Positions 2,463-30,638 of a DNA stretch of 64,000 bases are shown here, in pieces. Each line of letters starts with the position of its first letter. The stretch's first letter is position 1. The DNA comes from an uncultured Ruminococcus sp. GTDB lineage: Bacteria > Bacillota > Clostridia > Oscillospirales > Ruminococcaceae. Below the pieces are notes generated by a model, which saw only the letters and a list, made by a program, of their open reading frames with translations, searched no databases and was not told the DNA's origin. Location of the stretch: assembly GCA_902762785.1 (NCBI GenBank), contig CACWPL010000012.1:1-64000 (forward strand), in the 5' to 3' direction. A program made the position numbers and the translations under genes.

Positions 2463-2497
2463 GGCGCCGTCCCTTCGCTGAGGACGGCGCCTTTCGT
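2463..2497 (+). terminator. Rho-independent terminator after cysK
   Basis: Ten-base perfect stem GGCGCCGTCC (2463-2472) pairs with GGACGGCGCC (2482-2491), followed by TTTCGT. It lies between two convergent genes. Confidence 0.75.
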
Positions 2498-2509: not shown

Positions 2510-3106
2510 TCACTTCTCGACCCGGATCACCGCGACACAGCACGGCACGAGGCCGCGCACCATGCGGTATTCCGCCGCGATGCCGCGGTCCTCAAAGAAC
2601 TGCCGGTAGCTCTCCCGGCTGAACTGCCGCGGGAACTGCGTGCCCATGGCGCGGAACACGGTCGTGACGGCCGTGGCGCGGGCATTCTCCTGGGCGACAT
2701 AGGTCGGGATCAGGAGCAGACCGCCCGGCTTGACCACCCGCCGCAGCTCGTCGAGCGCACGGTCGGGGTCGTCGAGCAGATGGATCACGTTCGCGGCCAC
2801 GGCGGCGTCGAAGCAGGAATCGCGGCATCGGATCGCCGTGATGTCCGCATAGCGGAGCGTGACGTTGGCCTGTCCGCGGACCTTCTCCCAGCAGCGGCGG
2901 AGCATCCTGCGCGAATAGTCCGTCGCGATGAGCCGCCCGCACGCCGGGGCGAGCACACGCGTCATGATCCCCGTCCCGCAGGCGCACTCGAGCACGGTGT
3001 CGTCCTCATGGAGATAGGACGCGCAGATCGCCGCCGCCTCGTCGTTCACCTTCCGCTCCACGACCTGATAGAGGTCGTAGATGCCGGCCATCCTGTCCCA
3101 AAACAT
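2510..3106 (-). CDS. Class I SAM-dependent methyltransferase
   Basis: A cytoplasmic methyltransferase of 198 residues with a Rossmann-type SAM fold. Motif I is VLECACGTG at about 38-46, followed by the acidic ribose-binding strand end ATDYS at 61-65 and a downstream FDAAVAANVIHLL segment typical of UbiE/COQ5-like Methyltransf_11 proteins. The substrate cannot be read from sequence. It is the third gene of the operon that starts at 10011. Its ribosome site AAAGGAGG overlaps the stop codon of the HEPN-type gene upstream, leaving a gap of 12 bases, which points to coupled translation. The tight coupling suggests a role with the ATPase and HEPN proteins, although co-option of a housekeeping methyltransferase is also possible. 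Confidence 0.85.
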   Translation of the reverse strand: MFWDRMAGIYDLYQVVERKVNDEAAAICASYLHEDDTVLECACGTGIMTRVLAPACGRLIATDYSRRMLRRCWEKVRGQANVTLRYADITAIRCRDSCFDAAVAANVIHLLDDPDRALDELRRVVKPGGLLLIPTYVAQENARATAVTTVFRAMGTQFPRQFSRESYRQFFEDRGIAAEYRMVRGLVPCCVAVIRVEK

Positions 3107-3118
3107 CGCATCCTCCTT

Positions 3119-4156
3119 TCAGCGGAACAGTCCCAGCGCCTCGAGCGACTTCCAGGGGATGGGGTCGAGGTGGGAGAGGTCGTTGCGCGCCTTGCGCATC
3201 CGCGCGAGCTGGTCGATGTCGGCCTTGTCGGCGAGCCCCCGGCTCTGGCAGAGGAACCAGATATGGACGATCTCCAGCTCCTTCGGCTCGGTGATATAGC
3301 CGCCGTAGCCGTTCGGGATGGAGAGGTCCTTGGGGAAGCGGTGGCCGTATTTTTGAAGATACCGCTGGCGCTGCTCCTCCAGGATCGGGTAGACCGTTCG
3401 GATCTGCGCGCGCCAGACGGCCTCACGCTGCCGGGCGGTGTCCTTCCCGAGGATGGCGGCCGCCGTGCCCAGCGGGTCGTGTGCGAGCGCCGTGCCCTCG
3501 GAGGCGAGCGCGGCGGCCGGCTCCGGCGCGTACCCCGCCAGCGACGCGGCCAGCTCCGTGATGTACTGCGCCATCGCGCCGCGGATGTCCTTCTCCGTGA
3601 GGACGGCCTGGCAGACCATCAGCGTGTCCTGCTCGGAGAGGTCGCGTCCCAGGTCGAGATAGCGGCCCATGTCCTTGCGGAGGTCGCGGGACTGCGCGTC
3701 CTCCATCAGCAGCGCAAAGATGCCGTGGCGCTCCCCCGCTGCGGCCAGATAGCTCGTGACCGTCTTGAGCCACGCCTCACAGGCCTTCCCGCGGATCCCC
3801 CGCACGATGACGATGGCGCGGGACAGCGAGATCTCGGGGTGCTGCGCCATGTAGCGCTCCTCCGGCTCGCTCGGCCAGTATTCGTCCTTCTGGTCCTCCT
3901 CGGCGAACGTCTCGAGGAGACGCGCACCGGGGGACATGGTATCGTCGGAGACATCGAGCTCCTTCAGCTTCTGGACGCCGAGGCGCTCGCCGAGCGGCGC
4001 GGTGAGGCGCTCGACGAGCAGCGTCTCCCAGGGGAGCGGCCCCGGGCTCCGCAGCACGACGCTTCTGCCGCTGCACAGCGTATCCTGCGCCTCCCGCAGG
4101 ATACGGGAGGCCGTCGGCATATGGTCCCACCAGAACGTTCCGATCGTGTTTTCCAT
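3119..4156 (-). CDS. HEPN-motif protein with degenerate NTPase-like N-terminus
   Basis: A 345-residue protein with no family name I can give with certainty. The C-terminal helical part ends in RNDLSH (324-329), a match to the R-x4-6-H catalytic motif of HEPN ribonucleases, within the context KARNDLSHLDPI. The N-terminal half alternates strands and helices like a P-loop or STAND domain: a strand at 32-36 leads into SPGPLPWET, where a Walker A would be, and AIVIVRG at 114-120 sits where a Walker B strand would be. The GK(S/T) is absent, so ATP binding is doubtful. ATG 4156 is preceded by AAAGGAGG overlapping the stop of the ATPase gene (14-base gap). Inferred role: effector or partner of the ATPase. 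The HEPN assignment rests on a short motif and needs structure prediction. Confidence 0.7.
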   Translation of the reverse strand: MENTIGTFWWDHMPTASRILREAQDTLCSGRSVVLRSPGPLPWETLLVERLTAPLGERLGVQKLKELDVSDDTMSPGARLLETFAEEDQKDEYWPSEPEERYMAQHPEISLSRAIVIVRGIRGKACEAWLKTVTSYLAAAGERHGIFALLMEDAQSRDLRKDMGRYLDLGRDLSEQDTLMVCQAVLTEKDIRGAMAQYITELAASLAGYAPEPAAALASEGTALAHDPLGTAAAILGKDTARQREAVWRAQIRTVYPILEEQRQRYLQKYGHRFPKDLSIPNGYGGYITEPKELEIVHIWFLCQSRGLADKADIDQLARMRKARNDLSHLDPIPWKSLEALGLFR

Positions 4157-4170
4157 CCGGCATCCTCCTT

Positions 4171-7100
4171 TCACTGTGCATAGCCGGTCAGCGCATCGTC
4201 GACCGCCTTGGCGGTGCCGAGCAGCTCCCGGAAGCCGGTGGTGGAGAACTGGTAGCCGTCGTTGACCACGCTGAGGATGTTCAGATCCCACATCTCACCG
4301 AGCAGGACATCGAGCTGCTCGTCATTGAGCGCGCAGATGCGTGCGATGCCGAGCTCCGTTGCCTCCTCGCGGATGTCGGCGAGGGAGTGGGAGAGCTGGC
4401 TGCCCTCGGAGCAGCGGCCGTTCTTGAGGTCGTCGTAGTAGAGCTGGGCGAGGAGGAGCGCGATGATGTGGTAGTAGCTGCCCTGTGCCTGGTCGACGAA
4501 GAGGGTCATGCGCAGCTTGTTGCTCATCTCACTGACGAAGTGCTTGTCGGCCAGGAGCTTCTTGATGTGATCCTCCGTGACCTCGTAGGGCGGTGTGCTG
4601 CCGATGGAATAGCCGCCGTAGCCCTCCTCCTTCATGGATTCGAGCAGCTTCTGGCAGTAGAGCTGGATGAGACCGGGGAAGTAGTTGGTCTTGCCGAGGA
4701 TGAGGGAGACGATCCGCTCGTCACCGAGCCGGAATCCCAGATAGCCGAGGGTGTGGGTCAGGAGCTCCGTGGCCTCGGGACGGCGGAACGGGCGGACGAT
4801 GACGCTGCTCATGTGCGCCATGATATTGTTGTTATAGAGCATGGCCTCGCGCTCGAAGCGGGAAAGGTCATGCACACCGGCCATCACGATCTTGAAGCGC
4901 GGCGATTGCAGGTTCTTCAGCTCGGAGATGGGGCGGTAGTCGACCTCGGCACAGCTCGAGATGAACTCATCGGCCTCGTCGAGCATGAGGAGGAGGTAGT
5001 GGATGTAGCGGTCGGGATCCTCGTCGGCAAGGCGCTTGCGGATGTGGCGGGCGAGGACCTCCCAGTCGTCGCACTCGCAGGACTCCTCGAGGATGCCGGC
5101 GTCGATCAGGTAGGTCGAGACCTTGTGGGCGGCCTCACGGTAGCCGAGCTTCGTGATGTCCACGAGGACGGCGCGGTCGTGGAGATCGTTGCCGTCCACA
5201 CGCATCTGCGCCATCTTCAGCAGCGCGCTCTTACCGAGCTGACGGCCGCCGTAGACCAGATTCGCACCGCTCGCGACCTCGATGGTGCCCAGCTCCGCGG
5301 AGCGGCCGGCAAAGAGCTCGGGCGGGGTCTGGAAATGCGAGTCCGCGATGAAGGGCTGGTAGTAGGCGAAGGGCATGGTGATGGCCATGAGCATCCTGTC
5401 GACGGACGTCTCTGCGTAGTTGCGTGCGAGGAAGAAGAGGGTCACGCGGTCGATGACGATGTACGTCCGCGTGAGGGTGTGGTCCTGCTTGCAGGCCTTG
5501 GCCAGCTCGTGGCGGTCGTCGATGTTGAGGGCGTGGTCGAGGAGGACGATGGTGTGGCGCGGCGTGCGGCCGATGGTACGGAAGCGGTCGAGGAGCTTCT
5601 TGGTATCGTGGCGGCTGTAGAGACAGAGCACGCGGAAGGGCTCGGTCTCGGCATCCGAGCCGAAGGCGGGGATGGGATAGGGATAGCTGGTGTTGCCGCG
5701 GCGCTTCTCGCGCAGGACGAGATAGCTGTCGGCGTTCGGCTCGCTGGTCTCGCGCGTCACAGTGATCTGGCCAAAGCCGAGCAGACCGAGGAGCTCGGCG
5801 ATGGTCTCCTCCCCGGCAGGGGCGTTCTTGATCCAGTGCATCAGCAGCTTGACGCCGCCGCGTACATCCTTGCGGCCGTTCTCGGACTTGTGCAGGAGGG
5901 TGAGCTCGAGCTCGTCGGCACGGCGGGCATCGCTGCGGCGCACGTCCTCCGTCAGACGATGCTCATGCTGGAGGATGGAGTCGACGACCGTATGGCTGCC
6001 GGAGGCGACGAAGGAATAGTCCTCGCCGTACTCCTCCATGAAGCGGCGCAGGTAGCCCAGCGGCGCCTCGGACCAGTCCTCGACATCGTCGACGTCCTTG
6101 ATGCGCACGCAGTTCATCATGTGCTCTGCGATGGTGTACTCACGGTCGCGGATGGCGGCCTCGATGCGCTCGCGCGGGTAGATGCCGAGGTCGACGTCCG
6201 GCTCGGCGCACAGCTCCTCGAGCTGACGGGTCAGGTCACGGCCGCGGGTCTCGTCCTCACGCGCCACGGTGGCGTTCAGGGCGTTCAGCAGGCGCATGAA
6301 GGCGCCGAAGTCCTGCGTGCGGTCGGTGATGGCCGCCCAGGCGTCGGCAGTGTCGCGCAGCGCGGTCTTGCGTCCCATGACATCGGAGATGCGGCCATAG
6401 CTCTCGGCGAGCTCCAGGTCCTCCTTGAAGTCGCGGTAGCGCTTGAGGACGCGGCTGCGGCTCTGGCGGACGTAGCGCTCCATATCCTCGAAGAGCGGGT
6501 CGTTCGCGAGCGCCTCGTCCCCGGTCTCGCGGGCATAGTCGCGGATGAGACGGGCAGCGCGGTGGTCGTTCTTGGTCACGTCGTCGCTGAAGATGGAGTG
6601 CAGGCGCTCGGTGAGGGACGGGAGCGCTGCCTGGGCATGGCGCTCGATCCGTCCGAAGATGCACAGCTCCGGCAGTCCGCAGAACGTGGACTGGAGCTCC
6701 GGCAGGAAGTTCTCATCGAGCAGGATCTCCTCGCTGCGCAGGAAGCCGGCGAACAGGAAGCGGCGCGTCTTCATGTCCCAGGTGCCCTCGAGCTTGGCAT
6801 AGAGCTCCTCGGCGGTGACGCGCAGCGCCTCGGCAGCGCGGTCGGCGGTCGTGTCCCCGCAGGAATCGGCGATCTCACGCAGGCAGGGCATGAGCTGGGC
6901 ACGGGCGAAGCTGTAGCGTGCGAGGACGGCCTCGCTGTCGGCGCCGCCGGTCTGCTCGGTCACGCAGACCCATCCGCACAGACAGTGGAGCATCGAACGG
7001 ATCACATTGACGACCGAGCTGCGCTTGGGGTCGTGCAGACGCTGGTGCGGACGGTCGACATTGAGACGCTCGGCGCGCATCCGGTCGGCGGCCAGGTCCC

Positions 7101-10011
7101 AATAGCGGTCGATGTAGGCATCGAGGCGCGGGAGGTCGATGTTCTCCATGTCGATCTCGCGGCCGTCACGGATGAAGGTCGTCTCCAGGAGCTCGCGCAC
7201 CTCGTCGACGCGGCTGCGGTCGTTGGCCTCCACGATGTCGATGGCCGAGCGCAGCTCGCTCTTCTCGAGGAACAGCAGGATGCGCGTGTAGCGGACGCGG
7301 CCGCTCGTCTCGAAGCAGTTCGCGCGCGCCTCGGCCTTTTCGATGCACTCCTTGGCCTCCTTGGCATAGTCCTCCGCGGTCACATCGCTGCGGCGGTAGT
7401 CGGCGAAGGTGTCGATGCCGTGGCCGGTGGCAGTATGGAACGCGATCATGAGATCGGCCGCCTTGCGGAAGGACGGGATCTTCGCCGAGATGTCCTGCTG
7501 CTCGAGACTGAGCACGAGGTCCTCGAGGCCGTGGTCATGACTGCCATAGTAGCTGAACAGTGCGCGCAGGACGGCCGCGCCGAACAGGAGCGTGTTGCCC
7601 TCGTCGAGATACTGCGCACTGGTGTAGAACACCTCCGCGATCGACTGGGAGGTATAGGAGCAGCGCTCGATCGGGTCGTCGAAGGCATAGCTGTAGGCCT
7701 TCGCACACGCGCGCAGGTAGCTGTCCGGTGTGTCGCCGCGTGCCTCGGCCAGCAGGGCGGCCGCATCCAGATAGGTCAGCATGAGATAGCGCTCCGGCAT
7801 CCCCAGCGCACGGCGGAGCAGCTCCGAATCGGAGAGACCGACCGCATCCAGACCGTCCTTGTCCTTGTAGGCAGCGAGGAGCGCGGGCAGGTCGGCGACC
7901 TCCTCCTCCTCCGGCGCGGCCTGTGCGGTCTCGGCAGGGGCCGTTTCCTCGGCGGGAGCTGCCTCCTCGGCAGGGGGCGCGATCAGCGCTTCGACATCAT
8001 ATCCGGCGTCCGCCAGACGCTCGAGGAGCGCGGGACGGTGCTTCTCGTCCGCCTGCACGGCCAGCATGGCGGCACGGTCGACATCGCCCTCATCGAGATA
8101 GAGCGCAGCCAAGGTCGGGATCACATCGCCGCTGCGGGCGTTCGTGTTCGACCCGCTCTCATCGCAGAGACGGAGCCACTTCTCGAGCTCCGCGATCGCG
8201 GCCGGGGCCTTCCCCTGCTCGAGCAGGAGCGCGGCCTTCTCGCGGCGGCGGCGCATGATCTCCTTGGGCGGCTTTTCCGGAAGGAGCGTCAGCAGCTCAT
8301 CGAGGAGGGGCAGGAGCGCGTCCTTCCGGCCGAGCCGCTCGCTCAGCGACAGCACCGCGGAGACGTTCTCGGCATCGCGGGTGATGGTGTCGCCATAGTC
8401 ATCGAGGAGCTCGGTCACAGAGGCAGAATAGCCCAAGTCGCCATAGCGCCCCCACATGACGTCGTAGCAGCGGAGCTGTCCGGCCGCGGCGGCCGCAGGC
8501 TCCTCGTCCATCAGCAGCTTGAAGGCCTCGAGCGCCTGCTCCGGCACTCCTTTCTCGAGGAGCTTCGTGGCATCGGCAAGGCTCTTGGTGCGCGCGGCAC
8601 GGGCGGCCTTCTCCTGCTCCTTCTTCTTCTTCTTGCTCAGACCGGTGTAGACCGTGCCCGTCACGGGGGTGCGCACCTCCACGGCCATTTCCTTCCCATA
8701 GGCACGGCCGCCGTGCTTGAAGATGACGCCGATGTCGAGGTCGCGCGCCTCCTTGCTCTCCATCGCGTTCAGGCGGTCACGCAGCGCGGTGTCCGTCACG
8801 GAGGCGATGCTGAAGCGGAAGCTGCCCTCGCCGTTCTCCGGCACGATCTCGCCGGTCTTCTCGTAGACATTGAACTTCACGATGATGCCCGCGCGCGGAC
8901 GGTCGGGGTCGATCGTGGGGATGACAGGCGTCTCCGGCACAGGCTCGTCGACAGGCTCCGGCGCCTGCTCCTGCGGCGCGGCAGCCTCGATCAGCGGCCG
9001 CACCTGGGTCGCCGTGCAGTAGGACGTGAGCGCCTCGAGGCAGGAGGGCAGGCTCAGGAAATTGGTCAGACCGGCCTTGCAGTCGGCATCGACACGGCGG
9101 ATGACCGCCTCGATCCAGAGGAGCTGCTCCGGCGTGCGCTCGCTCGCAAGGAGCCACGCCAGACCGCTGAGGTCCTTCAGATGCAGCGCACTGTAGGCCT
9201 CGATGGCGGCCGCATCCGGCAGATCGTCAGATCCGGCGTCACGGATGGCGATGGCCGCATAGACCGCGGCCGTGCGGTAGGCCTCGTCCGTCTCGGCGGA
9301 CTTGGCATCGCGGTAAGCAAGACGGCAGGCCGCGGCGACATTTCCGCCGCGGTGGAAGTTCCCGATGGCCTCGGCGGTCTGCCCCTCGAGGCATTGCGCC
9401 GTCGCGAGGAACGCCCAGGCGGTGTCGTCATCGTCATCGCGAATGTCCCCCTTGAGGGACAGCACGGCGCCCTTGAGCTTCTCCTGATCCTTGGCGGACA
9501 GGGCACTGTTGATGGTGCTGTAGACCGGATTGAAGTGCTTGCGCAGGTCGGTCGGCATCGCGCGGAACGCTGTTTTCAGGACATCCGCATCGAAGCGGAG
9601 CGGACGGATCTCGTCCTCTGTCGGCAGGATGGCCTGACGGAGGGTAGGCGCCGGGACAGCAGGTGCCTCCGGTACAGACGGGATGGGCGCTGCCGGGACG
9701 GAGGGCGATCCTGAGACAGGCGGCGCTGCCGGTGCTGTCGCGGTGATGGCCGGCATCGGGACAGGGGGCGGGGTGATGATGACCTGCTCGCCCTTTTGCG
9801 GGGCCGGCATCGTTTGGACGACAGTCGCGCCCGGTATCTCGATCATGCCGATCTGTGAGAAGGGGATCACGGCCGAATACGTCACCTGAAGGCGCAGCGC
9901 GGCGCCGTCGTTCTCCTGCACGATACCGCTGATCGTGCGTCCTGTGCGGTCAGTGAGCGTCACATAGGCGCCCGGTGTCAGTGCTGCGAGATCTTTTTGG
10001 AAGATGTCCAT
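4171..10011 (-). CDS. Giant Sm-like/helical-repeat/STAND-type ATPase
   Basis: A 1946-residue protein, the largest in the window. Order of parts: residues 1-60 are beta-rich with the pattern GAYVTLTDRTGRTISGIV, like an Sm/Lsm or small beta-barrel RNA-binding domain. Residues 65-112 are a Pro/Ala/Val linker. A helical segment follows, then a second beta-rich module near 370-450 (GIIVKFNVYEKTGEIV), possibly OB or cold-shock-like. Long TPR-like helical repeats extend to about 1450. The C-terminal P-loop ATPase has Walker A GGRQLGKS at 1588-1595 and Walker B LLMLDEADEF at 1674-1683, and the last 140 residues look like a winged helix. The architecture fits STAND-class signalling ATPases of conflict systems. 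It is first in a three-gene operon with its own strong promoter; the ribosome site is AAGGAG eight bases before ATG. No signal peptide or membrane segment was seen. Confidence 0.8.
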   Translation of the reverse strand: MDIFQKDLAALTPGAYVTLTDRTGRTISGIVQENDGAALRLQVTYSAVIPFSQIGMIEIPGATVVQTMPAPQKGEQVIITPPPVPMPAITATAPAAPPVSGSPSVPAAPIPSVPEAPAVPAPTLRQAILPTEDEIRPLRFDADVLKTAFRAMPTDLRKHFNPVYSTINSALSAKDQEKLKGAVLSLKGDIRDDDDDTAWAFLATAQCLEGQTAEAIGNFHRGGNVAAACRLAYRDAKSAETDEAYRTAAVYAAIAIRDAGSDDLPDAAAIEAYSALHLKDLSGLAWLLASERTPEQLLWIEAVIRRVDADCKAGLTNFLSLPSCLEALTSYCTATQVRPLIEAAAPQEQAPEPVDEPVPETPVIPTIDPDRPRAGIIVKFNVYEKTGEIVPENGEGSFRFSIASVTDTALRDRLNAMESKEARDLDIGVIFKHGGRAYGKEMAVEVRTPVTGTVYTGLSKKKKKEQEKAARAARTKSLADATKLLEKGVPEQALEAFKLLMDEEPAAAAAGQLRCYDVMWGRYGDLGYSASVTELLDDYGDTITRDAENVSAVLSLSERLGRKDALLPLLDELLTLLPEKPPKEIMRRRREKAALLLEQGKAPAAIAELEKWLRLCDESGSNTNARSGDVIPTLAALYLDEGDVDRAAMLAVQADEKHRPALLERLADAGYDVEALIAPPAEEAAPAEETAPAETAQAAPEEEEVADLPALLAAYKDKDGLDAVGLSDSELLRRALGMPERYLMLTYLDAAALLAEARGDTPDSYLRACAKAYSYAFDDPIERCSYTSQSIAEVFYTSAQYLDEGNTLLFGAAVLRALFSYYGSHDHGLEDLVLSLEQQDISAKIPSFRKAADLMIAFHTATGHGIDTFADYRRSDVTAEDYAKEAKECIEKAEARANCFETSGRVRYTRILLFLEKSELRSAIDIVEANDRSRVDEVRELLETTFIRDGREIDMENIDLPRLDAYIDRYWDLAADRMRAERLNVDRPHQRLHDPKRSSVVNVIRSMLHCLCGWVCVTEQTGGADSEAVLARYSFARAQLMPCLREIADSCGDTTADRAAEALRVTAEELYAKLEGTWDMKTRRFLFAGFLRSEEILLDENFLPELQSTFCGLPELCIFGRIERHAQAALPSLTERLHSIFSDDVTKNDHRAARLIRDYARETGDEALANDPLFEDMERYVRQSRSRVLKRYRDFKEDLELAESYGRISDVMGRKTALRDTADAWAAITDRTQDFGAFMRLLNALNATVAREDETRGRDLTRQLEELCAEPDVDLGIYPRERIEAAIRDREYTIAEHMMNCVRIKDVDDVEDWSEAPLGYLRRFMEEYGEDYSFVASGSHTVVDSILQHEHRLTEDVRRSDARRADELELTLLHKSENGRKDVRGGVKLLMHWIKNAPAGEETIAELLGLLGFGQITVTRETSEPNADSYLVLREKRRGNTSYPYPIPAFGSDAETEPFRVLCLYSRHDTKKLLDRFRTIGRTPRHTIVLLDHALNIDDRHELAKACKQDHTLTRTYIVIDRVTLFFLARNYAETSVDRMLMAITMPFAYYQPFIADSHFQTPPELFAGRSAELGTIEVASGANLVYGGRQLGKSALLKMAQMRVDGNDLHDRAVLVDITKLGYREAAHKVSTYLIDAGILEESCECDDWEVLARHIRKRLADEDPDRYIHYLLLMLDEADEFISSCAEVDYRPISELKNLQSPRFKIVMAGVHDLSRFEREAMLYNNNIMAHMSSVIVRPFRRPEATELLTHTLGYLGFRLGDERIVSLILGKTNYFPGLIQLYCQKLLESMKEEGYGGYSIGSTPPYEVTEDHIKKLLADKHFVSEMSNKLRMTLFVDQAQGSYYHIIALLLAQLYYDDLKNGRCSEGSQLSHSLADIREEATELGIARICALNDEQLDVLLGEMWDLNILSVVNDGYQFSTTGFRELLGTAKAVDDALTGYAQ

Positions 10012-10063
10012 AGTAAAAGCTCCTTTTGCGTTATATTTGGCACGTCCATGCGTGTCTATTTAT

Positions 10064-10092
10064 ATTATATAACATCGAGAGAGAAAGTTCAA
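10064..10092 (-). promoter_or_regulatory. Sigma-A promoter of the ATPase/HEPN/methyltransferase operon
   Basis: On the minus strand, -35 TTGAAC (10087-10092) and -10 TATAAT (10064-10069) are separated by 17 bases, in an AT-rich patch. The -10 box is about 50 bases upstream of the ATPase start. This is one of the strongest-looking promoters here, which argues for constitutive expression. Confidence 0.85.
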
Positions 10093-10206
10093 TCTATTTT
10101 AAGAAAAATGATCTGATCTCGCTGCGCATATATCTGATCGAACGCCGTCGCACGGAGCGGCATCTCCTCATAGCGCACAGGTCCCTGCATAGAAAGGAGC
10201 ATCCCT

Positions 10207-10878
10207 ATGTTCGATCATATCTTCGTCCCCGGCTGGGACGGCCCCTCGGTGCCGCTCTCGGCACACAAACGCACGCTGCGGCTCCTCGCCGCCGTGCTCC
10301 TGCTCCTCTCCGCGGTCTGCTTTTGTCTGCGGGGCATCCGCGGGCGCGGCGACCTCACGCTGGAGATGGAGGAACGCCAGATCCCGCTCTTCTACCAGAC
10401 CGATCCCCGCTGGGGCGGGAACGCCTATGGTGACAGCACCATCGCCGTCAGCGGATGCGGCCCCACCTGTCTCTCCATGGTGATCTGCGGCCTGACCCAG
10501 ACGCAGGACTGGGGGCCCGCCTCCGTCGCGGCCTTCGCGGAGGCGCAGGGCTATTACATCCCCGGCATCGGTACCGCCTGGGACCTCATGACGGCCGGCG
10601 CCGCCGACCTCGGCCTGATGAGCAGGAGCCTTCCCTGCACGGCCGACGTCCTGCTGGAGGCCTCGCCGGATGCGCCGCTGATCTGCTCCATGATGCCCGG
10701 TGACTTCACCAAGGGCGGTCACTTCATCGTCATCGTCGGTGTGGATGAGAGCGGCCGTCTCATCGTCAACGACCCCGCCAGCGAGGTCAATTCCAAGAAG
10801 CGCTGGGATGCCGGCCGTGTCGCCGACCAGGTCAAGGGCGTGTGGCAGTTCGCCCTGCCGGCAGATGCCGCGGAGTGA
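10207..10878 (+). CDS. Membrane-anchored C39-like cysteine peptidase
   Basis: A 223-residue protein with one membrane segment near 25-43 and the rest extracellular. The C-terminal domain has the papain-like/peptidase C39-like pattern: YQTDPRWG (63-70), SGCGPT with the probable catalytic Cys84, GGHFIVIVG with His172, and VNDP with Asp189. This is the usual Cys-His-Asp order. Such domains cleave peptides or act on cell-wall peptides, but the substrate is unknown here. An AAAGGAG ribosome site precedes ATG 10207. It is divergent from the ATPase operon and is followed by an L,D-transpeptidase lipoprotein with its own promoter, so a cell-envelope role is reasonable. Confidence 0.85.
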   Translation: MFDHIFVPGWDGPSVPLSAHKRTLRLLAAVLLLLSAVCFCLRGIRGRGDLTLEMEERQIPLFYQTDPRWGGNAYGDSTIAVSGCGPTCLSMVICGLTQTQDWGPASVAAFAEAQGYYIPGIGTAWDLMTAGAADLGLMSRSLPCTADVLLEASPDAPLICSMMPGDFTKGGHFIVIVGVDESGRLIVNDPASEVNSKKRWDAGRVADQVKGVWQFALPADAAE

Positions 10879-10886
10879 CGCGGCAC

Positions 10887-10915
10887 TTGCATTCTCGCCC
10901 GTTTTGTGCTATAAT
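10887..10915 (+). promoter_or_regulatory. Sigma-A promoter of the L,D-transpeptidase lipoprotein gene
   Basis: -35 TTGCAT (10887-10892), a 17-base spacer, and -10 TATAAT (10910-10915), 42 bases before the ATG at 10958. Confidence 0.85.
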
Positions 10916-10957
10916 GGTGTTATCCAATGCCTATGGCAAATGAAAGGATGGTCCCAT

Positions 10958-11761
10958 ATGCAACATCAGAGCAAACGTACGGTCCGCCTCCTCGCGGCGG
11001 TCGCCCTCACGGCGGCGCTCCTGACCGGATGCGGCAGTCCGGCCGCAGCGCCTGCCGGCGATGCCGCAGGGGCAGGCGGGGACGCACTGTCGATCCAGAC
11101 GCAGAACGTCGTCGTTTCTCCCGCCTGGCTCCCGCAGCTCGAGGCGGCGAAGGGATGCGATCAGCTCATCGTCGTCGCCGGAGTGGGCGAGACCACCTGC
11201 TACGTCAGCATGCACGAGAAGGATGCGAACGGCAACTGGAAGATGCTCCTCCAGGCGCCCGGCTATATCGGCATCGAGGGCCTGGGGGAGGCCGACAGCT
11301 ACCACGCGATCACGCCGATCGGGACCTTTACGATCGACAAGGCGTTCGGCATCGCAGACGATCCCGGCTGCCAGATCCCCTATACCAAGGTGACCGATGA
11401 CGATTATTGGTCGGGCGATATGCGCGAGGGGATGCATTTCAATGAGTTCGTCAAGCTCAGCGATGTCCCCGACCTCGACACCTCGAGCAGCGAGCATCTG
11501 ATCGACTATACCTACGAGTACCAGTATTGCCTGAACATGGGCTTCAACAGCGACTGTGTGCCCGGGGGCGGCGCGGCCTTCTTCTTCCACTGCATGAGTC
11601 TCGTCAAGCCCTACACGGGCGGCTGCGTCGCAGTCAATGAGGCGGTCATGAAGCAGATCATGCAGCAGGTCAAGGAGGGCTGCCGGATCACCATCGACAC
11701 GGCCGATGCCCTTGGGATCGACCTCAACGAAGCACGCGACTTTGCCAACCGGAACGTCTGA
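10958..11761 (+). CDS. L,D-transpeptidase family lipoprotein
   Basis: A 267-residue secreted lipoprotein. The signal peptide ends in the lipobox LLTGC with Cys25 as the lipidation site, followed by an Ala/Gly-rich linker. The catalytic domain shows AITPIGTFTID, a hallmark strand of YkuD-type enzymes, and later FFHCMS and YTGGCVAV, which match the His and the nucleophilic Cys of the family (H-x-n-GC). It probably cross-links or modifies peptidoglycan outside the cell. ATG 10958 is the first Met with a signal peptide and has GAAAGGA upstream; the longer open frame overlaps the previous gene. A strong terminator follows. A second, larger L,D-transpeptidase lies at 15965-18055. Confidence 0.9.
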   Translation: MQHQSKRTVRLLAAVALTAALLTGCGSPAAAPAGDAAGAGGDALSIQTQNVVVSPAWLPQLEAAKGCDQLIVVAGVGETTCYVSMHEKDANGNWKMLLQAPGYIGIEGLGEADSYHAITPIGTFTIDKAFGIADDPGCQIPYTKVTDDDYWSGDMREGMHFNEFVKLSDVPDLDTSSSEHLIDYTYEYQYCLNMGFNSDCVPGGGAAFFFHCMSLVKPYTGGCVAVNEAVMKQIMQQVKEGCRITIDTADALGIDLNEARDFANRNV

Positions 11762-11776
11762 CCCGGCAGCAAAAGC

Positions 11777-11820
11777 ATATGCCCCCTTCCCACGGGCGGG
11801 AAGGGGGCATATCTTTCTTT
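11777..11820 (+). terminator. Strong bidirectional terminator
   Basis: Fifteen-base perfect stem: 11777-11791 pairs with 11798-11812 around a six-base loop, then CTTTCTTT. The minus-strand reading serves the convergent membrane-protein gene, with a weaker tail. Confidence 0.9.
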
Positions 11821-11844
11821 ATCGAAGGCGGGCGGCGTGATCGC

Positions 11845-14607
11845 TCACCACTGCCAATCCTTGAAGAGCGCGGGCTTTTTCTCGGCCGCGGCCTCCTCGG
11901 GATGCTCGGCACGGCGGCGGTTCTTGTATTCAAAGAAGCTCGCGATGCCGATCAGCAGGATGCCGGCGAGGAAGAGGTAGATGCCCCAGTGCAGCGACGT
12001 CCAGAAGGACCAGGTCAGGCGGATCGTCATGACGACGAGCACCGCGAAGCCCAGCGTGAACCAGCGGAGCCGTCTCACAAAGAAGCTGCCGACCAGGATG
12101 CCGAAGCTGAAGACCACCAGCACGATCGCGTCCGCGACATTGCCGAAGCGGAAGCTCGACACCAGCAGGCAGAGCATCGTGACGCAGTAGGCGATGAAGC
12201 GCGCGGCATGGACGCGGCGGCGCTGCGTCTTCGGGAGGATGAACAGGAGCGTGAAGATGAACAGATGCACCGGCAGCAGGTACAGGAGGATCTGCGGGGT
12301 GATCATGTCCGAGCGGCGGAAGACCTCCAGGATGCCGAAGGGGTCGTCGATGTCGTGAAAGAGGACGGCCGTGCATCCGAAGAAGGAGGCCAGGAAGGCC
12401 GGGATGTAGTGCCGCTTCACGCGCCCCAGATAGAGCAGCGAGTAGAGCGCAAGGAACACGGAGGCCAGGATCCGCGGGTACCAGTCGATCGCGGAGACCG
12501 CCCCGAACACCGTCAGCACGCCCGTCGCGAGCGGCGCGTCGAGCTGGGCGACGCCGTTCTCGATCGTGACGAAGCGCGGGAGCAAAATGCGTCCCATCAC
12601 GGCCAGCAGGAGCAGCATCCCCGCGTAGCAGCCGACCTGGATCAGGGTCTTCCCCTCGAAAAAGTCCATCGTCATGCTGAACGCGAAGAACAGCATCGCC
12701 AGCGGCAGGAACGCCGGGATGTTGACCTTCTTGACCGTGAACGCCGCCGAGAAGATCAGCAGGAGCAGCATCAGCAGGATGCCCCAGATGCTCGGATCAT
12801 CGAAGAGGTAGATCAGCGTCGTGACCAGGCCGAGCGGGAGCGAGACGATCTCGAGATAGGAACGCGTCGCCTCCGTGCGGACGTGGCCGCGCAGGAAGGC
12901 CGTCTCCAGGAGGTACAGCAGCGTCACTGCCGCCATCAGGAGGACCCAGCACGGGGTCGGTCTCAGATACGGCGCGAGCGTCTCCTGGAGCGCCGGGAGG
13001 AGCATCGCGATAAAGCCGATCGCGGCGGTCTTTTCCACGAGCGCACGGTGCAGGACGTGGCCGAAGACCGTCACGAGGAGGAGCGTCCCCGCCGCGAGCC
13101 AGAAGACCGGCATCACCGGGTCGTGCAGACGCAGCAGGAGCGTCGCCCCGCAGGACGCGAGCGCCAGCACGAGCGTCCACGGACGGCGCTGCATAAGGAA
13201 CGTCACCAGCAGCACCAGCGCCGCGATCACCAGCAGGAGCGCGAACACCAGCGTATCCTCGCTCGGCCCGTAGGCGCCGAACAGCGCGGCCACAAAGAGC
13301 AAGGGCGCGGTCAGGGCGAGCCGCCCCGACTCCCCGGAGAGCTTGCCCTTCGGGAGCAGGAAGAAGCACAGCAGCGCCGCCGCGGTCGTACCGCCGCCCA
13401 AGAGGATCGCCTGGTAGTGGTCCTCATCGAAGAGCAGACCGATCGTGGCGATCGGGAGCATGATCCCGCTGAGGATCGCGCCCGTCCATCCGAAGGACCG
13501 GCGCAGCACCTCGCTCGCCTGCGGGACGGCGAGCGCCGTCATCAGGATCAGTCCGGGGACGACCATCTGGAAATAGGCATGGGCGAAAAACTCGGCATCG
13601 TCCAGCGGCGCGACGTTCATCACCGCATACGCCGCCGCCTCGAGCGCGACCAGCGCGCCCGCCGCGCCGACGTGTACCTTGCCGAAGACGAAGCGCTCGT
13701 TGAGGAAGAGCGCCGCCAGCACGAGCGACAAAAGCGCACCGACCACGCCGCAGGTCTCCGCGAGCGTCAGGAACGCGGCCGCGTAGAACAGGAGCAGCGG
13801 CAGAAGGAACGCGACGGCCGCCTTGGAGAACGGCGTCTCCTTCCCCGCGCGCAGATACATCTCCACGAGCACCGTCGCCGCGATGCCGCCGAGGAGCCAG
13901 ACCCCCATGATGAGGCAGGTGCCGGGGCGGCCTTCCGTGCCGCCGGGCATCTGCTCGGCGAGGAAGAGCGCGAAGGACGACCATCCGCCTGCGATGCCCG
14001 TCATGGCGATCCAGGCGAGGAAGCTGCTCTTGTAGCTGCGCGCGCCGAACCATGCGCAGACCGCCGCGCAGAGGAAGAGCGTCATCACGACGATGTACGC
14101 ACCGCCGCCCGCGAAGCTGTACCAGTCGCCCAGGAGGCGGAAGACGCCGATGCCCGCGATGGCCAGCGGCAGGAAGATGCATCCCAGGATGTAGAACGCA
14201 AGGCCGGTCTTGGGGAGCTTCCAGATGCGCTCGGCCAGCAGGTTCGCGCCGAACGCGATCACGCCCGCCGACAACAGCGATACCGCGCGCGCCACGTTCG
14301 GCATCACGTCCCAGGTGCTCGTCAAAAAGACGATGCCGCCCAAAAACAGGAACGCCACGCCCGCGATCAGCAAAAGCGGGATCGGGGAGAAGGGCTGCCG
14401 CGGCTTCTTCGGCTTCGGCGCGGGCGCATGGTACTGCGGCGTCCCGGGCGGGAGCACGAAGGGCGGCGGCGAGCTGGTGTCGACCGCGTCGGAGCGGATG
14501 CGCATGGGGACGGGCGCGGTGTCGGGGTCGTCATGGAAGAGCGCGTCGTCATTGCCGCCGGACGTGGGGCGGGGGTAGAGTCTTTCGTAGGGATTCTCGT
14601 TTGCCAT
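11845..14607 (-). CDS. Large polytopic membrane protein (DUF2157-like features)
   Basis: A 920-residue integral membrane protein. A soluble, Pro-rich N-terminus of about 110 residues is followed by roughly two dozen hydrophobic segments to the end, closing with a short basic/acidic cytoplasmic tail. The early segments (MPNVARAVSLLSAGVI, then FYILGCIFLPLAIAG) resemble the start of DUF2157-type proteins, but no catalytic motif is visible and the function is unknown. ATG 14607 is chosen because GGAGGCGAT lies six bases upstream; the longer frame to 14691 has no ribosome site. It is monocistronic, ending at the shared terminator near 11800. Confidence 0.8.
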   Translation of the reverse strand: MANENPYERLYPRPTSGGNDDALFHDDPDTAPVPMRIRSDAVDTSSPPPFVLPPGTPQYHAPAPKPKKPRQPFSPIPLLLIAGVAFLFLGGIVFLTSTWDVMPNVARAVSLLSAGVIAFGANLLAERIWKLPKTGLAFYILGCIFLPLAIAGIGVFRLLGDWYSFAGGGAYIVVMTLFLCAAVCAWFGARSYKSSFLAWIAMTGIAGGWSSFALFLAEQMPGGTEGRPGTCLIMGVWLLGGIAATVLVEMYLRAGKETPFSKAAVAFLLPLLLFYAAAFLTLAETCGVVGALLSLVLAALFLNERFVFGKVHVGAAGALVALEAAAYAVMNVAPLDDAEFFAHAYFQMVVPGLILMTALAVPQASEVLRRSFGWTGAILSGIMLPIATIGLLFDEDHYQAILLGGGTTAAALLCFFLLPKGKLSGESGRLALTAPLLFVAALFGAYGPSEDTLVFALLLVIAALVLLVTFLMQRRPWTLVLALASCGATLLLRLHDPVMPVFWLAAGTLLLVTVFGHVLHRALVEKTAAIGFIAMLLPALQETLAPYLRPTPCWVLLMAAVTLLYLLETAFLRGHVRTEATRSYLEIVSLPLGLVTTLIYLFDDPSIWGILLMLLLLIFSAAFTVKKVNIPAFLPLAMLFFAFSMTMDFFEGKTLIQVGCYAGMLLLLAVMGRILLPRFVTIENGVAQLDAPLATGVLTVFGAVSAIDWYPRILASVFLALYSLLYLGRVKRHYIPAFLASFFGCTAVLFHDIDDPFGILEVFRRSDMITPQILLYLLPVHLFIFTLLFILPKTQRRRVHAARFIAYCVTMLCLLVSSFRFGNVADAIVLVVFSFGILVGSFFVRRLRWFTLGFAVLVVMTIRLTWSFWTSLHWGIYLFLAGILLIGIASFFEYKNRRRAEHPEEAAAEKKPALFKDWQW

Positions 14608-26963: not shown

Positions 26964-28043
26964 TCAGACCGGCAGCGTCACGAGCTTGACGACGGCTTTC
27001 AGGACGTTGAGCGCGTCGGTCGTGTCGATCTCGCCGGACTTGTCGACGTCTGCATTGGCCTTGGCCGCGTCGGACAGCGTCGCACCGCCGAGGAGGCTCT
27101 TGTTCAGCAGGATGACGTCCATGATGGACACCGCCCCGTTCTCGTCGATGTCGCCGTAGGCGGGGGCGGGGGCGTCCGTGGGCGTCTCCGGCGTGCTCTC
27201 ATCGATCAGGACATAGGGGATGCTGTTCTCCTCCGCGTAGGTCTGGGCATAGCTGTCCTTGTAGACGGAGAGGGTGAGGTCGGGGCAGTTGGAGAACGCA
27301 TCGTCCCCGATCTCCGTCACACTCTTCGGGATGGTCAGAGAGGCCAGGCTCTCGCAGCCGGAGAACGCATAGTCGCCGATGGACGTCACGCTCTCCGGGA
27401 TGGTCAGAGAGGCCAGGCTCTTGCAGCCGGCGAACGCCGCTTTCCCGATCACCGTCACGCTCTCCGGAATCACGATAGAGGTCAGGCTCGTGCAGCTTTG
27501 GAACGCCAAGCCCCCGATCGTCGTCACGCCCTCCGGGATCGTCACATCACCTTCACAGGTCGTGCCGTCGATCAGGATACCGTTCACGATGACGAGCGGG
27601 TCGGCCTCATGCTGCGCGGCGAGCCACGGCGTATCATCAAATGCCCATCCGCCGATCACCGTCACACTCCCCGGAAACGTCACAGAGGTCAGGCTCGAGC
27701 AATATCGGAACGCTTCATCCCCGATCGCCTTCACGCCCTCCGGGATCGTCACAGCAGTCAGGCCTGTGCAGTTCTTGAATGCATCTTCCCCAATCACCGT
27801 CACCGGCTTGCCGCCGAGCGTGGACGGGATGTTGACGTCACCGCCATCGCCGGTGTATTCCGTGATCGTGGCGTTCCCGTTGGCATCGACGGTATAGGTA
27901 TAGTCCCCCTCGATCAGCTTCTCCGTGTCCTCCGCATGTACGGAGATCGTGGCCGTCTCCATCATCGGCGTAAGCGGCACCGCGGGGACTGCGGTCAGCA
28001 TCAGCGCCGCGCAAATGGCCGCTGTCATCCTCATTCTCTTCAT
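26964..28043 (-). CDS. BspA-like LRR_5 protein with dockerin
   Basis: A 359-residue secreted protein. The signal peptide covers about 30 residues; a DYTYTVDANGNATITEY cap follows, then about eight LRR_5 units of 23 residues. One non-LRR island (PLVIVNGILIDG) sits mid-array. A closing strand SIPYVLIDE leads to a C-terminal dockerin with loops DIDENGAVSIMDVILL and DVDKSGEIDTTDALNVL. Its dockerin differs from those of the other cluster members (shorter linker, LL at the helix end). Probably a surface or scaffold-docked binding protein. The start is ATG 28043 with GAGGAGGATG upstream; the TTG one codon earlier is less likely. Confidence 0.9.
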   Translation of the reverse strand: MKRMRMTAAICAALMLTAVPAVPLTPMMETATISVHAEDTEKLIEGDYTYTVDANGNATITEYTGDGGDVNIPSTLGGKPVTVIGEDAFKNCTGLTAVTIPEGVKAIGDEAFRYCSSLTSVTFPGSVTVIGGWAFDDTPWLAAQHEADPLVIVNGILIDGTTCEGDVTIPEGVTTIGGLAFQSCTSLTSIVIPESVTVIGKAAFAGCKSLASLTIPESVTSIGDYAFSGCESLASLTIPKSVTEIGDDAFSNCPDLTLSVYKDSYAQTYAEENSIPYVLIDESTPETPTDAPAPAYGDIDENGAVSIMDVILLNKSLLGGATLSDAAKANADVDKSGEIDTTDALNVLKAVVKLVTLPV

Positions 28044-28115
28044 CAAGGATCATCCTCCTCTTGATCTCGTTTTTTTCACAGCTCCCACAGGCACCTTCGC
28101 CCGCAGGATATACAT

Positions 28116-28144
28116 ATTATACAAAAAATGGAAAAACGTGTCAA
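28116..28144 (-). promoter_or_regulatory. Promoter of the 359-residue LRR/dockerin gene
   Basis: Minus strand -35 TTGACA (28139-28144), 17-base spacer, -10 TATAAT (28116-28121): full consensus. Confidence 0.93.
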
Positions 28145-28265
28145 GTATTTAGCTGGTATCACGGAAAAGTTCTATTATCTGCACAAGAATCGCGCGGCGG
28201 ATCTGTAAAATAGTGGCCCGCCCGGCAGGATCTGGCGATCTTCCTCCCATGGAAATATCTTTGCA

Positions 28266-28294
28266 TTGACTTCCCCGCCCCTTCGTGGTAAGAT
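28266..28294 (+). promoter_or_regulatory. Promoter of the CAP-domain protein gene
   Basis: -35 TTGACT (28266-28271), 17-base spacer, -10 TAAGAT (28289-28294), 42 bases from the ATG. Confidence 0.8.
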
Positions 28295-28336
28295 GGAGAC
28301 GTGGCCACGATATGCACAAAGGAGATGATCGAACTG

Positions 28337-29056
28337 ATGAAACGAATGATCCTTGCCGCCTGCACGGCGCTCACGGCGGCGGCGATGCTGCCCGCGCTGC
28401 CGGCGGCGGCCGATGCCCCCGACCGGGACGCCTACGCGGCCGAGGTCGTGGCGCTGGTCAATGCCGCACGCGCCGACTACGGGCTCGACCCGGTCGTGCC
28501 GATCCCGGTGCTGGACACGGCTGCGACGGTCCGCGCGGAGGAGATCACGCAGGTGTTCTCCCACACCCGCCCGGACGGCCGTCCCTGCCAGACCGCGCTC
28601 GATGATGCCGGCGCCGCGTGGCGCACCTGCGGCGAGAACATCGCCTACGGCTATCCCGACCCCGCCGCCGTCATGGACGGTTGGATGCAGTCGGACGGCC
28701 ACCGCGCCAACATCCTGAACGCCTCTTTCGATGCCATGGGCGTCGGCGTGGTCTGGGAGGGCGGCACGCTCTACTGGACGCAGGTCTTCACCGGCGGTAC
28801 CTCCTACGCCGCACCTGCGCCCGCCCCCTCACAGGACGCCGCGCCGTCCGTCCCCGCCGCGCCGCTCCCGGACGCGCCCGCCGTCCCCGTGACGCCCGAC
28901 GCCGTCCTCCCCACGCTCGGCACGCCTGTCTGCATCACGGGCGGATGCGGCCTCCCGCTCTGTTTCGCGCCGTGCAGCACCGTCCCCGGCTGCCTCCCCG
29001 GGGATGCCCTCTGCCTTGCCCTGCCCGGCTGCCTCTCCGGGCTCTGCGGGAGATAG
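28337..29056 (+). CDS. Secreted CAP (SCP/PR1) domain protein
   Basis: A 239-residue secreted protein. The signal peptide ends at about 25 (LPAAADA). The CAP domain spans about 28-160 with VVALVNAARADYGL, FSHTRPDGR, CGENIAYGY and SDGHRANILN, the conserved motifs that place the two His and Glu of the CAP cavity. The tail is Pro/Ala-rich and then unusually Cys-rich (eight Cys in the last 45 residues), perhaps a disulphide knot. CAP proteins in bacteria are secreted with roles in stress, spore or surface biology; the function is not fixed. ATG 28337 is preferred to 28325, which lies only zero bases after GGAG. It is the only plus-strand gene in the LRR cluster. Confidence 0.88.
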   Translation: MKRMILAACTALTAAAMLPALPAAADAPDRDAYAAEVVALVNAARADYGLDPVVPIPVLDTAATVRAEEITQVFSHTRPDGRPCQTALDDAGAAWRTCGENIAYGYPDPAAVMDGWMQSDGHRANILNASFDAMGVGVVWEGGTLYWTQVFTGGTSYAAPAPAPSQDAAPSVPAAPLPDAPAVPVTPDAVLPTLGTPVCITGGCGLPLCFAPCSTVPGCLPGDALCLALPGCLSGLCGR

Positions 29057-29070
29057 TCCCCAGGACGTCC

Positions 29071-29112
29071 AAAAATGCGCCGCTCCCGTATCACCGGGGG
29101 CGGCGCATGTGT
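29071..29112. terminator. Bidirectional terminator between CAP and LRR genes
   Basis: ATGCGCCGCTCCC (29075-29087) pairs with GGGGGCGGCGCAT (29096-29108). T-runs follow on both strands (TTTTTGG on minus, GTTTTGG on plus). Confidence 0.85.
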
Positions 29113-29131
29113 TTTGGTCGGATGGATGACG

Positions 29132-30625
29132 TCAGGTGTTACCTGCGACGAGTCCCTCGAGCGTCACGTCCTTGCCAGTGCCCTTCATCGTGGAATAGAT
29201 CAGGATGAACGACGCATCGACGGCATCGAACTTGTCATCCTTGTTGACGTCGGCGACGTCCTGCTGGTACGACTCGAGACCGACAGGATGCCCGACGGCC
29301 TTCTTCGTGGACGCCACGAGCAGGTCGGAGGCGTCCTTCGCATCGACCGCGCCGTCCATATCGACGTCCCCAAGGAGATCGGCGAGCAGGACATAGGGGA
29401 TGGCATGTGCCTCCGCGAAATTCTGCGCATAGCTGTTCCGATAGACGGAGAGCGTCAGCGCGTCGCACCCCGCGAAAGCATCCTCTGCGATATGGCCCAC
29501 GGCACGCGGGAGCATCACAGAGGCCAGGGACGTGCAGCCGGAGAAGGTCTCCCTGCCGATGGCGGGCACCTTCTCCGAGACGGTCACGCTGGTCAGACTC
29601 GTGCATCCCTTGAACGCCCCGAATTCGAGGGTCGTCACGCGCGCCGGGAGGACGACGGCGGTCAGGCTCGTGCAGTCCTTGAACGCACGGTCGGCGATGG
29701 TCTCCACGCCCTTCGCACCCCGGATGGTGGCAAGGTGCGTGCATCCGATGAACGCCATCTCGCCGATCGTCGTCACGCTCTCCGGGATCGTGACCGAGGT
29801 CAGGTCCTCACAGTGGTAGAACGCCGTCCCGCCGATGGTCGTCACGCCCTCCGGGATGACCACGTCCCCCGCACAGGCCTTGGCATCGACGAGGAGGCCG
29901 TTCACCGCCACGCAGGGGTCGATCTTGCGCTGGGCCTCGAGCCAGGCGGTATTGGCGAACGTATCGTTCCCGCACGTTTGCAGGCTCTCCGGGAGCGTCA
30001 CCGCCTTCAGATTCTCGCAGTCGTAGAACGCAAGGTCGCCGATGGCCGTCACGCCCTCCGGGACGGTCACGGAGGTCAGGCCAAGGTCGTGGTAGAACGC
30101 GCCGTTCGCGATGGCCTTCACGCCCTCCGGGATCGTCACGTCGCCCTTGCAGGCATAGCCGTCGACCAAGATGTCGTTGACCACGACGAACTGGTCAGAC
30201 TCGCGCTTGGCCTTGAGCCAGGCGCTGTCGGCGAACGCATGGCTGCCGAAGTGCGTCACGCTCGACGGGATGGTCAGGTCCGTCAGGCTCGTGCAGAAGT
30301 AGAAGGCGTAGATGCCGATCTCCGTCACGCCCTCCGGGATCGTCACGGATGTCAGCAGCTCGCCGCCGTAGAAGGCCTTGTCCCCGATCACCGTCACGGG
30401 ATAGCCGCCGAGCATGGTCGGGATCGTGATCTCCGTGTCGGTGCCGTGATAGTGGGTGATGGTGGCGGTCTCGTCCTCCCCGATCGTGTAGGAATAGTCC
30501 CCGAAGCGCTGCGTCTCGGCCTCCTCCGCATGGACGACCGTCGCCGTCTGCATCATCGGCAGGAATGGCGCCAAGATCATCAGCAGCGCCGCGCAGATAG
30601 CGGCGGTCAGGCGATGTCTTCTCAT
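29132..30625 (-). CDS. BspA-like LRR_5 protein with dockerin
   Basis: A 497-residue secreted protein. Signal peptide (MRRHRLTAAICAALLMILAP), DYSYTIGEDETATITHY cap, then about 13 LRR_5 units interrupted by two islands (FVVVNDILVDGYACKGDV and CVAVNGLLVDAKACAGDV). The C-terminal dockerin has loops DVDMDGAVDAKDASDLL and DVNKDDKFDAVDASFIL. The start at 30625 follows AAAGGAG. Its gene lies 13 bases after the stop of the 685-residue paralog, so the two are probably one transcript, ending at the terminator near 29071. The islands have a different codon flavour from the neighbouring LRR units. Confidence 0.9.
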   Translation of the reverse strand: MRRHRLTAAICAALLMILAPFLPMMQTATVVHAEEAETQRFGDYSYTIGEDETATITHYHGTDTEITIPTMLGGYPVTVIGDKAFYGGELLTSVTIPEGVTEIGIYAFYFCTSLTDLTIPSSVTHFGSHAFADSAWLKAKRESDQFVVVNDILVDGYACKGDVTIPEGVKAIANGAFYHDLGLTSVTVPEGVTAIGDLAFYDCENLKAVTLPESLQTCGNDTFANTAWLEAQRKIDPCVAVNGLLVDAKACAGDVVIPEGVTTIGGTAFYHCEDLTSVTIPESVTTIGEMAFIGCTHLATIRGAKGVETIADRAFKDCTSLTAVVLPARVTTLEFGAFKGCTSLTSVTVSEKVPAIGRETFSGCTSLASVMLPRAVGHIAEDAFAGCDALTLSVYRNSYAQNFAEAHAIPYVLLADLLGDVDMDGAVDAKDASDLLVASTKKAVGHPVGLESYQQDVADVNKDDKFDAVDASFILIYSTMKGTGKDVTLEGLVAGNT

Positions 30626-30638
30626 CGCAGCTCCTTTC

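Follow-up and report, generated by a model that had tools for sequence, protein, structure and literature searches.

A Predicted Two-Gene Defence System Pairing a Giant STAND ATPase with a HEPN-Type Protein

Introduction

Three closely spaced genes on the minus strand of a contig from an uncultured Ruminococcus sp. raise the question of whether they form a conflict or stress system and, if so, which of them belong to it and how their products would work together. The sequence-only reading of this DNA had proposed a trio composed of an ATPase that senses or gates, a HEPN protein that cuts RNA, and a methyltransferase that marks or regulates. Following up that proposal, we find that two of the three genes recur as a unit in very different bacteria, and this pair is probably a little-studied bacterial immune system.

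The Locus

The window, that is, the whole stretch of 64,000 nucleotides that was analysed, is the start of one contig in a 2.8-Mb assembly of 62 contigs. Its three minus-strand genes were found as described, with open reading frames (ORFs) of 1946, 345, and 198 aa separated by intergenic gaps of 14 and 12 bases, and a re-reading of the sequence also bore out the AAGGAGG-type ribosome sites at the preceding stops. The elements of the locus are as follows.

4171..10011, minus strand: gene 1, giant STAND ATPase of 1946 aa, putative sensor and switch (ORF, relatives, Walker A)
3119..4156, minus strand: gene 2, pseudo-STAND/HEPN protein of 345 aa, putative RNase effector (ORF, relatives, motif, model)
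2510..3106, minus strand: gene 3, SAM methyltransferase (Methyltransf_11) of 198 aa, a co-directional neighbour judged to be outside the system
10064..10092, minus strand: promoter-like site TTGAAC-17-TATAAT
2463..2491, no strand assigned: inverted repeat of 10 bp without mismatches where the methyltransferase and cysK-like genes converge, a possible shared terminator

The promoter-like sequence described earlier is present, matching at 10 of 12 positions, but the number of such sites in the stretch stays within what chance could give (2 found vs. 1.0 expected). The possibility that the contig is a foreign artefact was rejected, as the G+C content of the window (0.64) compares with 0.55–0.66 in seven sampled stretches of other contigs; an eighth stretch, which read 0.000 and was presumably masked, was excluded. 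This genome is itself a G+C outlier for its genus, its sampled contigs (0.55–0.66) standing against values of 0.39–0.48 in the same-genus loci that were fetched.

A Giant STAND ATPase

Protein 1 is a giant STAND ATPase. Its length and both of its nucleotide-binding motifs were confirmed as first described, and its parts are listed below.

9814..10011, minus strand: Sm-like N-terminal module, residues 1–66, suggestive only (LSm4 profile match)
8667..8898, minus strand: cold-shock-like module, residues ~372–448, suggestive only (2kcm profile match)
5452..5811, minus strand: REase-like element, residues 1401–1520, inferred from the helix/strand order in the model
4174..5301, minus strand: STAND NTPase domain and C-terminal helical part, residues 1571–1946 (model, Foldseek, weak Pfam)
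5227..5250, minus strand: Walker A, GGRQLGKS, residues 1588–1595 (sequence)
4963..4992, minus strand: Walker B, LLMLDEADEF, residues 1674–1683 (sequence)

The STAND assignment is borne out by the Walker A and B motifs, by weak AAA profiles, and by a STAND/Orc-type fold. Walker A is kept in all 56 sequences of an alignment made up of the window's protein and 55 of the 64 ATPase segments listed (the start of one having been shifted), and weak Pfam matches to AAA_22, AAA_14, and ATPase_2 occur in 47, 46, and 42 of these 56 relatives, respectively. The model of a 615-residue C-terminal segment has a pLDDT of 90.2, and its Foldseek matches include the archaeal STAND ATPases 2qen (E 9.6e-9) and 2fna, Orc/Cdc6, Avs3 (8dgc), Avs4 (8dgf), and a plant resistosome. 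The alignment also contains invariant arginines, none of which is assigned here as a finger. Ahead of the ATPase domain, residues 1401–1520 of the model show the helix–strand order of a restriction-endonuclease fold, a predicted element in which no catalytic motif was recognised.

An RNA-binding-like start and a second beta module had been proposed for the other end of the protein. Profile searches against the PDB lean the same way, with LSm4 as the best match of residues 1–66 (E 0.086) and the cold shock domain protein 2kcm matching residues 372–448 (E 0.029, behind a designed protein at E 0.027), but neither 0.086 nor 0.029 is significant, and both modules are suggestive only. The Sm-like module was detected in 29 of 60 full-length protein-1 sequences and the cold-shock-like module in 33 of 60, the window's own included in each count. 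Sub-threshold Pfam LSM and SM matches were found in 2 and 1, respectively, of the 25 sequences searched out of those 29, and no Pfam support was found for the cold-shock-like module in 23 of the 33 sequences.

Neither protein 1 nor protein 2 has a usable match in Pfam, NCBIfam, or PADLOC, and a PDB sequence search with the two whole proteins returned nothing useful.

A Partner with Predicted STAND-Like and HEPN-Type Domains

The second protein can be divided as follows.

3449..4156, minus strand: predicted N-terminal AAA+/STAND-like fold without a P-loop, residues 1–236 (model, Foldseek)
3122..3448, minus strand: C-terminal HEPN-type helical domain, residues 237–345 (motif, model topology)
3170..3187, minus strand: R-N-x-x-x-H motif, residues 324–329, with invariant R, N, and H

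According to its model (mean pLDDT 94.9), protein 2 carries a degenerate STAND-like fold that had been overlooked in the sequence-only reading, with an alpha/beta core followed by helices in its N-terminal part. Its best 50 Foldseek matches are AAA+/STAND proteins, among them clamp-loader subunits/RFC (best E 6.9e-6), ORC, Apaf-1, and NLR proteins; the TM-scores are low (0.27–0.41), and therefore the fold class is supported while close kinship is not. In an alignment of 73 sequences, consisting of the window's protein and 72 of 73 full-length partner proteins, none has a P-loop in place, and the single match to the P-loop pattern precedes strand 1 and looks accidental. A conserved arginine finger was not seen either, with one column of more than 50% Arg (63%) across residues 1–240. 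W129, D177, P257, E260, and R263 are invariant in all 73 sequences. The presence of a STAND-like fold in protein 2 suggests how this protein may dock on protein 1.

The RNDLSH motif reported at residues 324–329 was confirmed, and R324, N325, and H329 do not vary among the 73 sequences. In a hand-picked set of 26 relatives spanning several phyla, R and H are kept in all 26 and N in 25. The model places R324 near the end of a helix (311–328) and H329 just beyond it, while E260 lies on a long helix (240–273) that an insert (274–295) separates from the motif helix. The excerpted description of HEPN RNases in PMC3710099 gives them an Rx4-6H motif that ends helix 3, a polar residue after the R, an acidic residue on helix 2, and an insert between helices 2 and 3. 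Protein 2 resembles the enzymes of that description in its Rx4H motif, the N after the R, the placement at a helix end, and the invariant acidic residue on the preceding long helix. It differs from them in its acidic motif (E-x2-R vs. the typical E-x3-[KR]) and in its partner, which is a STAND ATPase rather than an MNT antitoxin; also, unlike assigned HEPN RNases, it is above no Pfam cut-off. Cleavage of RNA without a need for metal is a further hallmark of this superfamily.

Matches to Pfam HEPN_Swt1 (E up to 0.1) were found in 7 of the 73 sequences, all sub-threshold, and a PDB profile search with the HEPN-type domain found nothing. The profile of this domain failed on two HEPN_Swt1 proteins that are above the family cut-off (best E 0.4 or worse) and matched only a sub-threshold HEPN_Swt1 protein, at 2.8e-7 in a very small database. 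It is therefore on motif and topology that we base the HEPN call: the conservation of the motif across phyla and the fitting layout speak for the ribonuclease-type reading, but no profile match reaches a threshold.

Linkage of the Two Genes

To see which genes travel together, 81 related loci were compared, of which 80 were kept from the 504 related stretches found in a profile scan of the genome collection, and one came from a scan of viral contigs; genes in the fetched loci were called with a simple purpose-written script. The pair of ATPase and HEPN genes is present in 78 of the 81 loci, being adjacent by gene calls in 77 and recognised in one more after its frames were re-read (L096). The three exceptions are two loci in which the ATPase gene ends near a contig end (L121 and L124) and one with a short, partnerless ATPase (L113). 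Coupling is close: the gene ends overlap in 43 of the 77 paired loci and lie within 20 bases of each other in 70. Likewise, in related genomes, the protein-2 gene is directly downstream of the protein-1 gene in all eight complete places outside the window, and a ninth match is fragmentary, lying at the end of its contig. Across 50 loci, the distances of one protein track those of the other (r 0.90, a value reached in 0 of 2000 permutations), and shared ancestry, which was uncontrolled, could alone yield much of this correlation.

Thus, genes 1 and 2 form a strict two-gene module. The search for co-occurring homologues proposed for the trio supported these two genes but not the methyltransferase, as a protein like that of gene 3 (P0003) was found in none of the 81 loci at E 1e-5. 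No other recurrent third gene was found, given that the biggest family among the 213 close neighbours, those within two genes of the pair across the 81 loci, has 7 members.

Two loci from one other genus (L051 and L052) hold ATPase relatives that have neither Walker A nor the STAND core, and the adjacent HEPN gene keeps its motif in both. The loss of the core with retention of the motif argues either for decay or for a partner role that is independent of ATP. These core-less relatives (L051, 8104–12642; L052, 7017–8657) bear a low-complexity acidic tail.

Distribution and Mobility

Within the lineage of the window, the pair is present in a minor fraction of genomes. Of 100 related genomes, the window's own included, 9 gave a match to protein 1 and 8 a match to protein 2; of 37 other genomes of the genus, 7 have protein 1. 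At the level of the family, matches were obtained in 10 of 296 other genomes (11 of 297 genomes and 10 of 126 genera with the window's own), followed by 4 of 391 genomes for the class and 8 of 398 for the phylum. Six of the 8 matching genomes in the phylum were matched through the HEPN part only, and the ATPase gene adjoins it in all six; two further loci at the level of the class hold both genes, although one of the two seems to coincide with L098. A first scan of genome contigs with a single-protein query gave 0 matches. The later profile scan of the genome collection found 504 stretches with ATPase relatives, the 80 examined being mostly from Firmicutes, yet neither protein has a usable name in Pfam, NCBIfam, or PADLOC.

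Two ATPase queries were matched 23 and 27 times in plasmid records, in every case below 60% identity. For instance, the two-gene form is carried by the Salinibacter ruber plasmid pSR118 and the Thiodictyon plasmid pTs417, and an Azospirillum plasmid has a larger ATPase with a HEPN-bearing partner. In two of the five plasmid loci that were read, from Bosea and Streptomyces (L176 and L177), no recognisable HEPN partner was found by profile. Carriage by phages was considered and rejected, with 0 matches in 50,697 phage records; viral contigs yielded one related locus. The nearest relative of an Acetatifactor copy is a Pseudoflavonifractor copy (78%), and one Ruminococcus copy is 67% identical to one from Hungatella, similarities across genera that are what transfer would give. 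The distribution of the pair is thus patchy and partly plasmid-borne, and we infer that the pair is mobile.

Genomic Neighbourhood

The homologues do not occupy conserved housekeeping positions with an invariable distribution: the flanks differ among the same-genus loci that were read, and occurrence varies as described above. Housekeeping synteny was rejected for the family as a whole on the basis of the small size of the largest neighbour family (7 of 213). Six of its 7 members have another neighbour in common as well, and a fixed position is thus a feature of sublineages only.

It had been proposed to test whether homologues sit in defence islands, and at some loci defence genes do lie near the pair. 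At L030, the start of a Cas10-like gene is 118 bases downstream of the pair, on its strand; Cas5- and Cas7-type III-D genes come next, and a CARF-HEPN gene is close by on the opposite strand. In Eubacterium ramulus (L109), Cas9 and three smaller genes end 1.2 kb upstream of the pair on the same strand; we take the smaller genes to be Csn2, from the PADLOC tally, and Cas1 and Cas2, from their size and place. DrmB and DrmC lie upstream of the pair in Butyrivibrio (L126), where an AAA plus DUF2357/PDDEXK pair lies downstream, and Druantia III DruE is upstream on a viral contig (L139), split into two frames by the script's gene calls. A type IIG restriction–modification enzyme and a Schlafen-AlbA protein are near the pair at L056. 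Nevertheless, the loci with such CRISPR, DISARM-type, Druantia III, or type IIG neighbours are a minority, and many copies of the pair sit among ordinary genes, as judged by eye. A PADLOC scan of close neighbours, covering 137 of 183 listed neighbours (of the 213) and one partner protein, matched 48 families, and the 25 families listed had 1 to 3 members each.

A general role as a type III CRISPR effector was considered and rejected, since one place only adjoins a Cas10-like gene (L030, which is the same as L110) and a type III-D-like operon in another part of the window's genome is not accompanied by the pair. That operon is on the minus strand at 4718–14241 of a 20-kb stretch (L209, contig C2, 77001–97000) in which no CRISPR array was found. 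Its Cas10-like and RAMP proteins are 23–26% identical to those of L030, and the place upstream of its Cas10-like gene that the ATPase/HEPN pair takes in L030 is occupied by an unassigned 986-aa gene.

Two further arrangements were observed beside the pair. In Butyrivibrio (L126, 2685–6120) and Anaerobium (L117, 1354–4804), genes for a helicase-like protein (858 and 861 aa, respectively) and a smaller protein (288 and 290 aa) directly precede the pair on the same strand, which is possibly an extended four-gene variant. At L063 (934–5917), the pair is preceded on its own strand, with a single intervening gene, by an RNA-repair gene of the Pnkp type (PNKP_ligase, E 6.8e-167), an arrangement that may reflect repair next to an RNase or may be due to chance.

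Comparison with Known Systems

The closest description that we found is that of nSTAND2, a predicted counter-invader system (Kaur et al. 2021, PMC8195603). In the section of that article dealing with it, nSTAND2 is a mobile two-gene operon in which both products have a STAND module and one of them, with eroded NTP-binding motifs, is fused to GT4 or HEPN, HEPN being one of its two commonest effectors; an arginine finger is given for both proteins, and the closest relatives named are CR-ATPases, DAP3/S29, and RNA12. Measured against that section, the pair is similar in three respects. It is a distinct two-gene operon that is patchy and found on plasmids, both of its proteins have a STAND-type fold (for protein 2, at the level of fold class, with low TM-scores), and one partner combines the lack of a P-loop with a HEPN-type motif throughout the 73 sequences. 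In contrast, a conserved arginine was not seen in the P-loop-less part of protein 2, no variant with GT4 happened to be noticed, and the section attributes to nSTAND2 none of the Sm-like, cold-shock-like, and REase-like parts that make up the long N-terminal region of protein 1. With these three features shared and the arginine finger lacking in protein 2, we liken the pair to nSTAND2 without filing it there; it would work like nSTAND2 and is perhaps a branch of it, a comparison made by description.

The pair also resembles Avs (AVAST) in having a STAND ATPase within a giant protein, a likeness at the level of the ATPase fold, with a low TM-score. Unlike in Avs, the putative effector function falls to a second protein, which combines HEPN with a STAND-like fold of its own, and PADLOC, which includes Avs models, assigned 0 families to proteins 1 and 2 (P0001 and P0002) at E up to 1. 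A catalytically dead STAND module alongside an effector is likewise described for the iSTAND of BREX and MoxR-vWA systems in the available excerpts of PMC12839542 and PMC8195603. Going by those excerpts, the pair differs in that its dead module is fused to HEPN and that BREX, MoxR, and vWA components do not recur with it. No experimental account of such a pair was noticed among the literature matches listed, most subscription papers being outside their scope.

Possible Function

We consider it fairly likely that the pair is a two-gene, nucleotide-gated abortive-infection system executed by its HEPN protein. We infer docking, sensing, an RNA target, and phage protection as follows. The N-terminal modules and the long helical region of protein 1 would sense an infection cue, and an ATP-dependent rearrangement or oligomerisation of this protein would ensue. 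Protein 2 would dock on protein 1 through its P-loop-less AAA+/STAND-like domain, its HEPN RNase being kept inactive until the STAND switch fires; the released RNase would then cut RNA, and growth would stop.

If such a prediction is true, the pair would represent an analogue of NLR-type immunity in compact bacterial form, with the killer domain on a dead ATPase twin, and it would offer a simple system for understanding how a STAND switch frees a ribonuclease. The ecology of gut bacteria and their phages would gain a component, and nSTAND2, a kind that has been sparsely described, would gain an anatomy. A bolder version, which we put forward tentatively and regard as rather doubtful, is that of an unnamed immune system of wide occurrence. 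Here, the giant STAND sensor, built on RNA-binding modules of the Sm-like and cold-shock-like types, would detect foreign RNA and unleash the HEPN ribonuclease tethered via the dead twin, and the two proteins would make up a hetero-oligomeric “resistosome” that senses RNA in gut Firmicutes and beyond.

Another explanation is that of a toxin–antitoxin or stress module, in which protein 1 would mainly restrain the HEPN RNase and free it on starvation or damage, serving plasmid maintenance or stress tolerance and not defence against phage. The strict pairing and close coupling of the genes, their carriage on plasmids, and the many copies that adjoin no recognised defence gene would all suit such a module. 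However, a STAND protein of ~1700–2050 aa has the build of a sensor, the structural matches of protein 1 include Avs3/Avs4 and the plant resistosome, and defence genes are present at some loci, which together make this explanation unlikely. It is quite improbable that the pair is a conserved, non-immune machine for RNA quality control or processing, with the Sm-like and cold-shock-like modules delivering RNA to the HEPN nuclease. The suggestive RNA-binding-like modules of protein 1 and the Pnkp gene at one locus would agree with it, but the patchy distribution, differing neighbours, plasmid carriage, and proximity to CRISPR, DISARM-type, and Druantia genes at some loci do not, and the Sm-like module is found in only 29 of the 60 full-length sequences.

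The defence reading of the pair leaves the methyltransferase aside. We give hardly any credence to the original trio, in which it was the third, modifying component: its strand, the 12-base gap, and the ribosome site at the preceding stop are in keeping with the trio, but, in addition to its absence from the related loci, its closest orthologues (42–49% identity) are in four same-genus genomes in which protein 1 was not matched. By family profile search (Methyltransf_11), protein 3 is a SAM methyltransferase of an ordinary kind, and we regard it as a bystander; 30 of 38 genomes contain matches to methyltransferases that are more distant, as expected because the family is large.

Elsewhere in the window, at 26964–39355, several long proteins have near-identical secretion-signal starts (MKHYRLTA.. 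and similar) and are apparently tandem paralogues.
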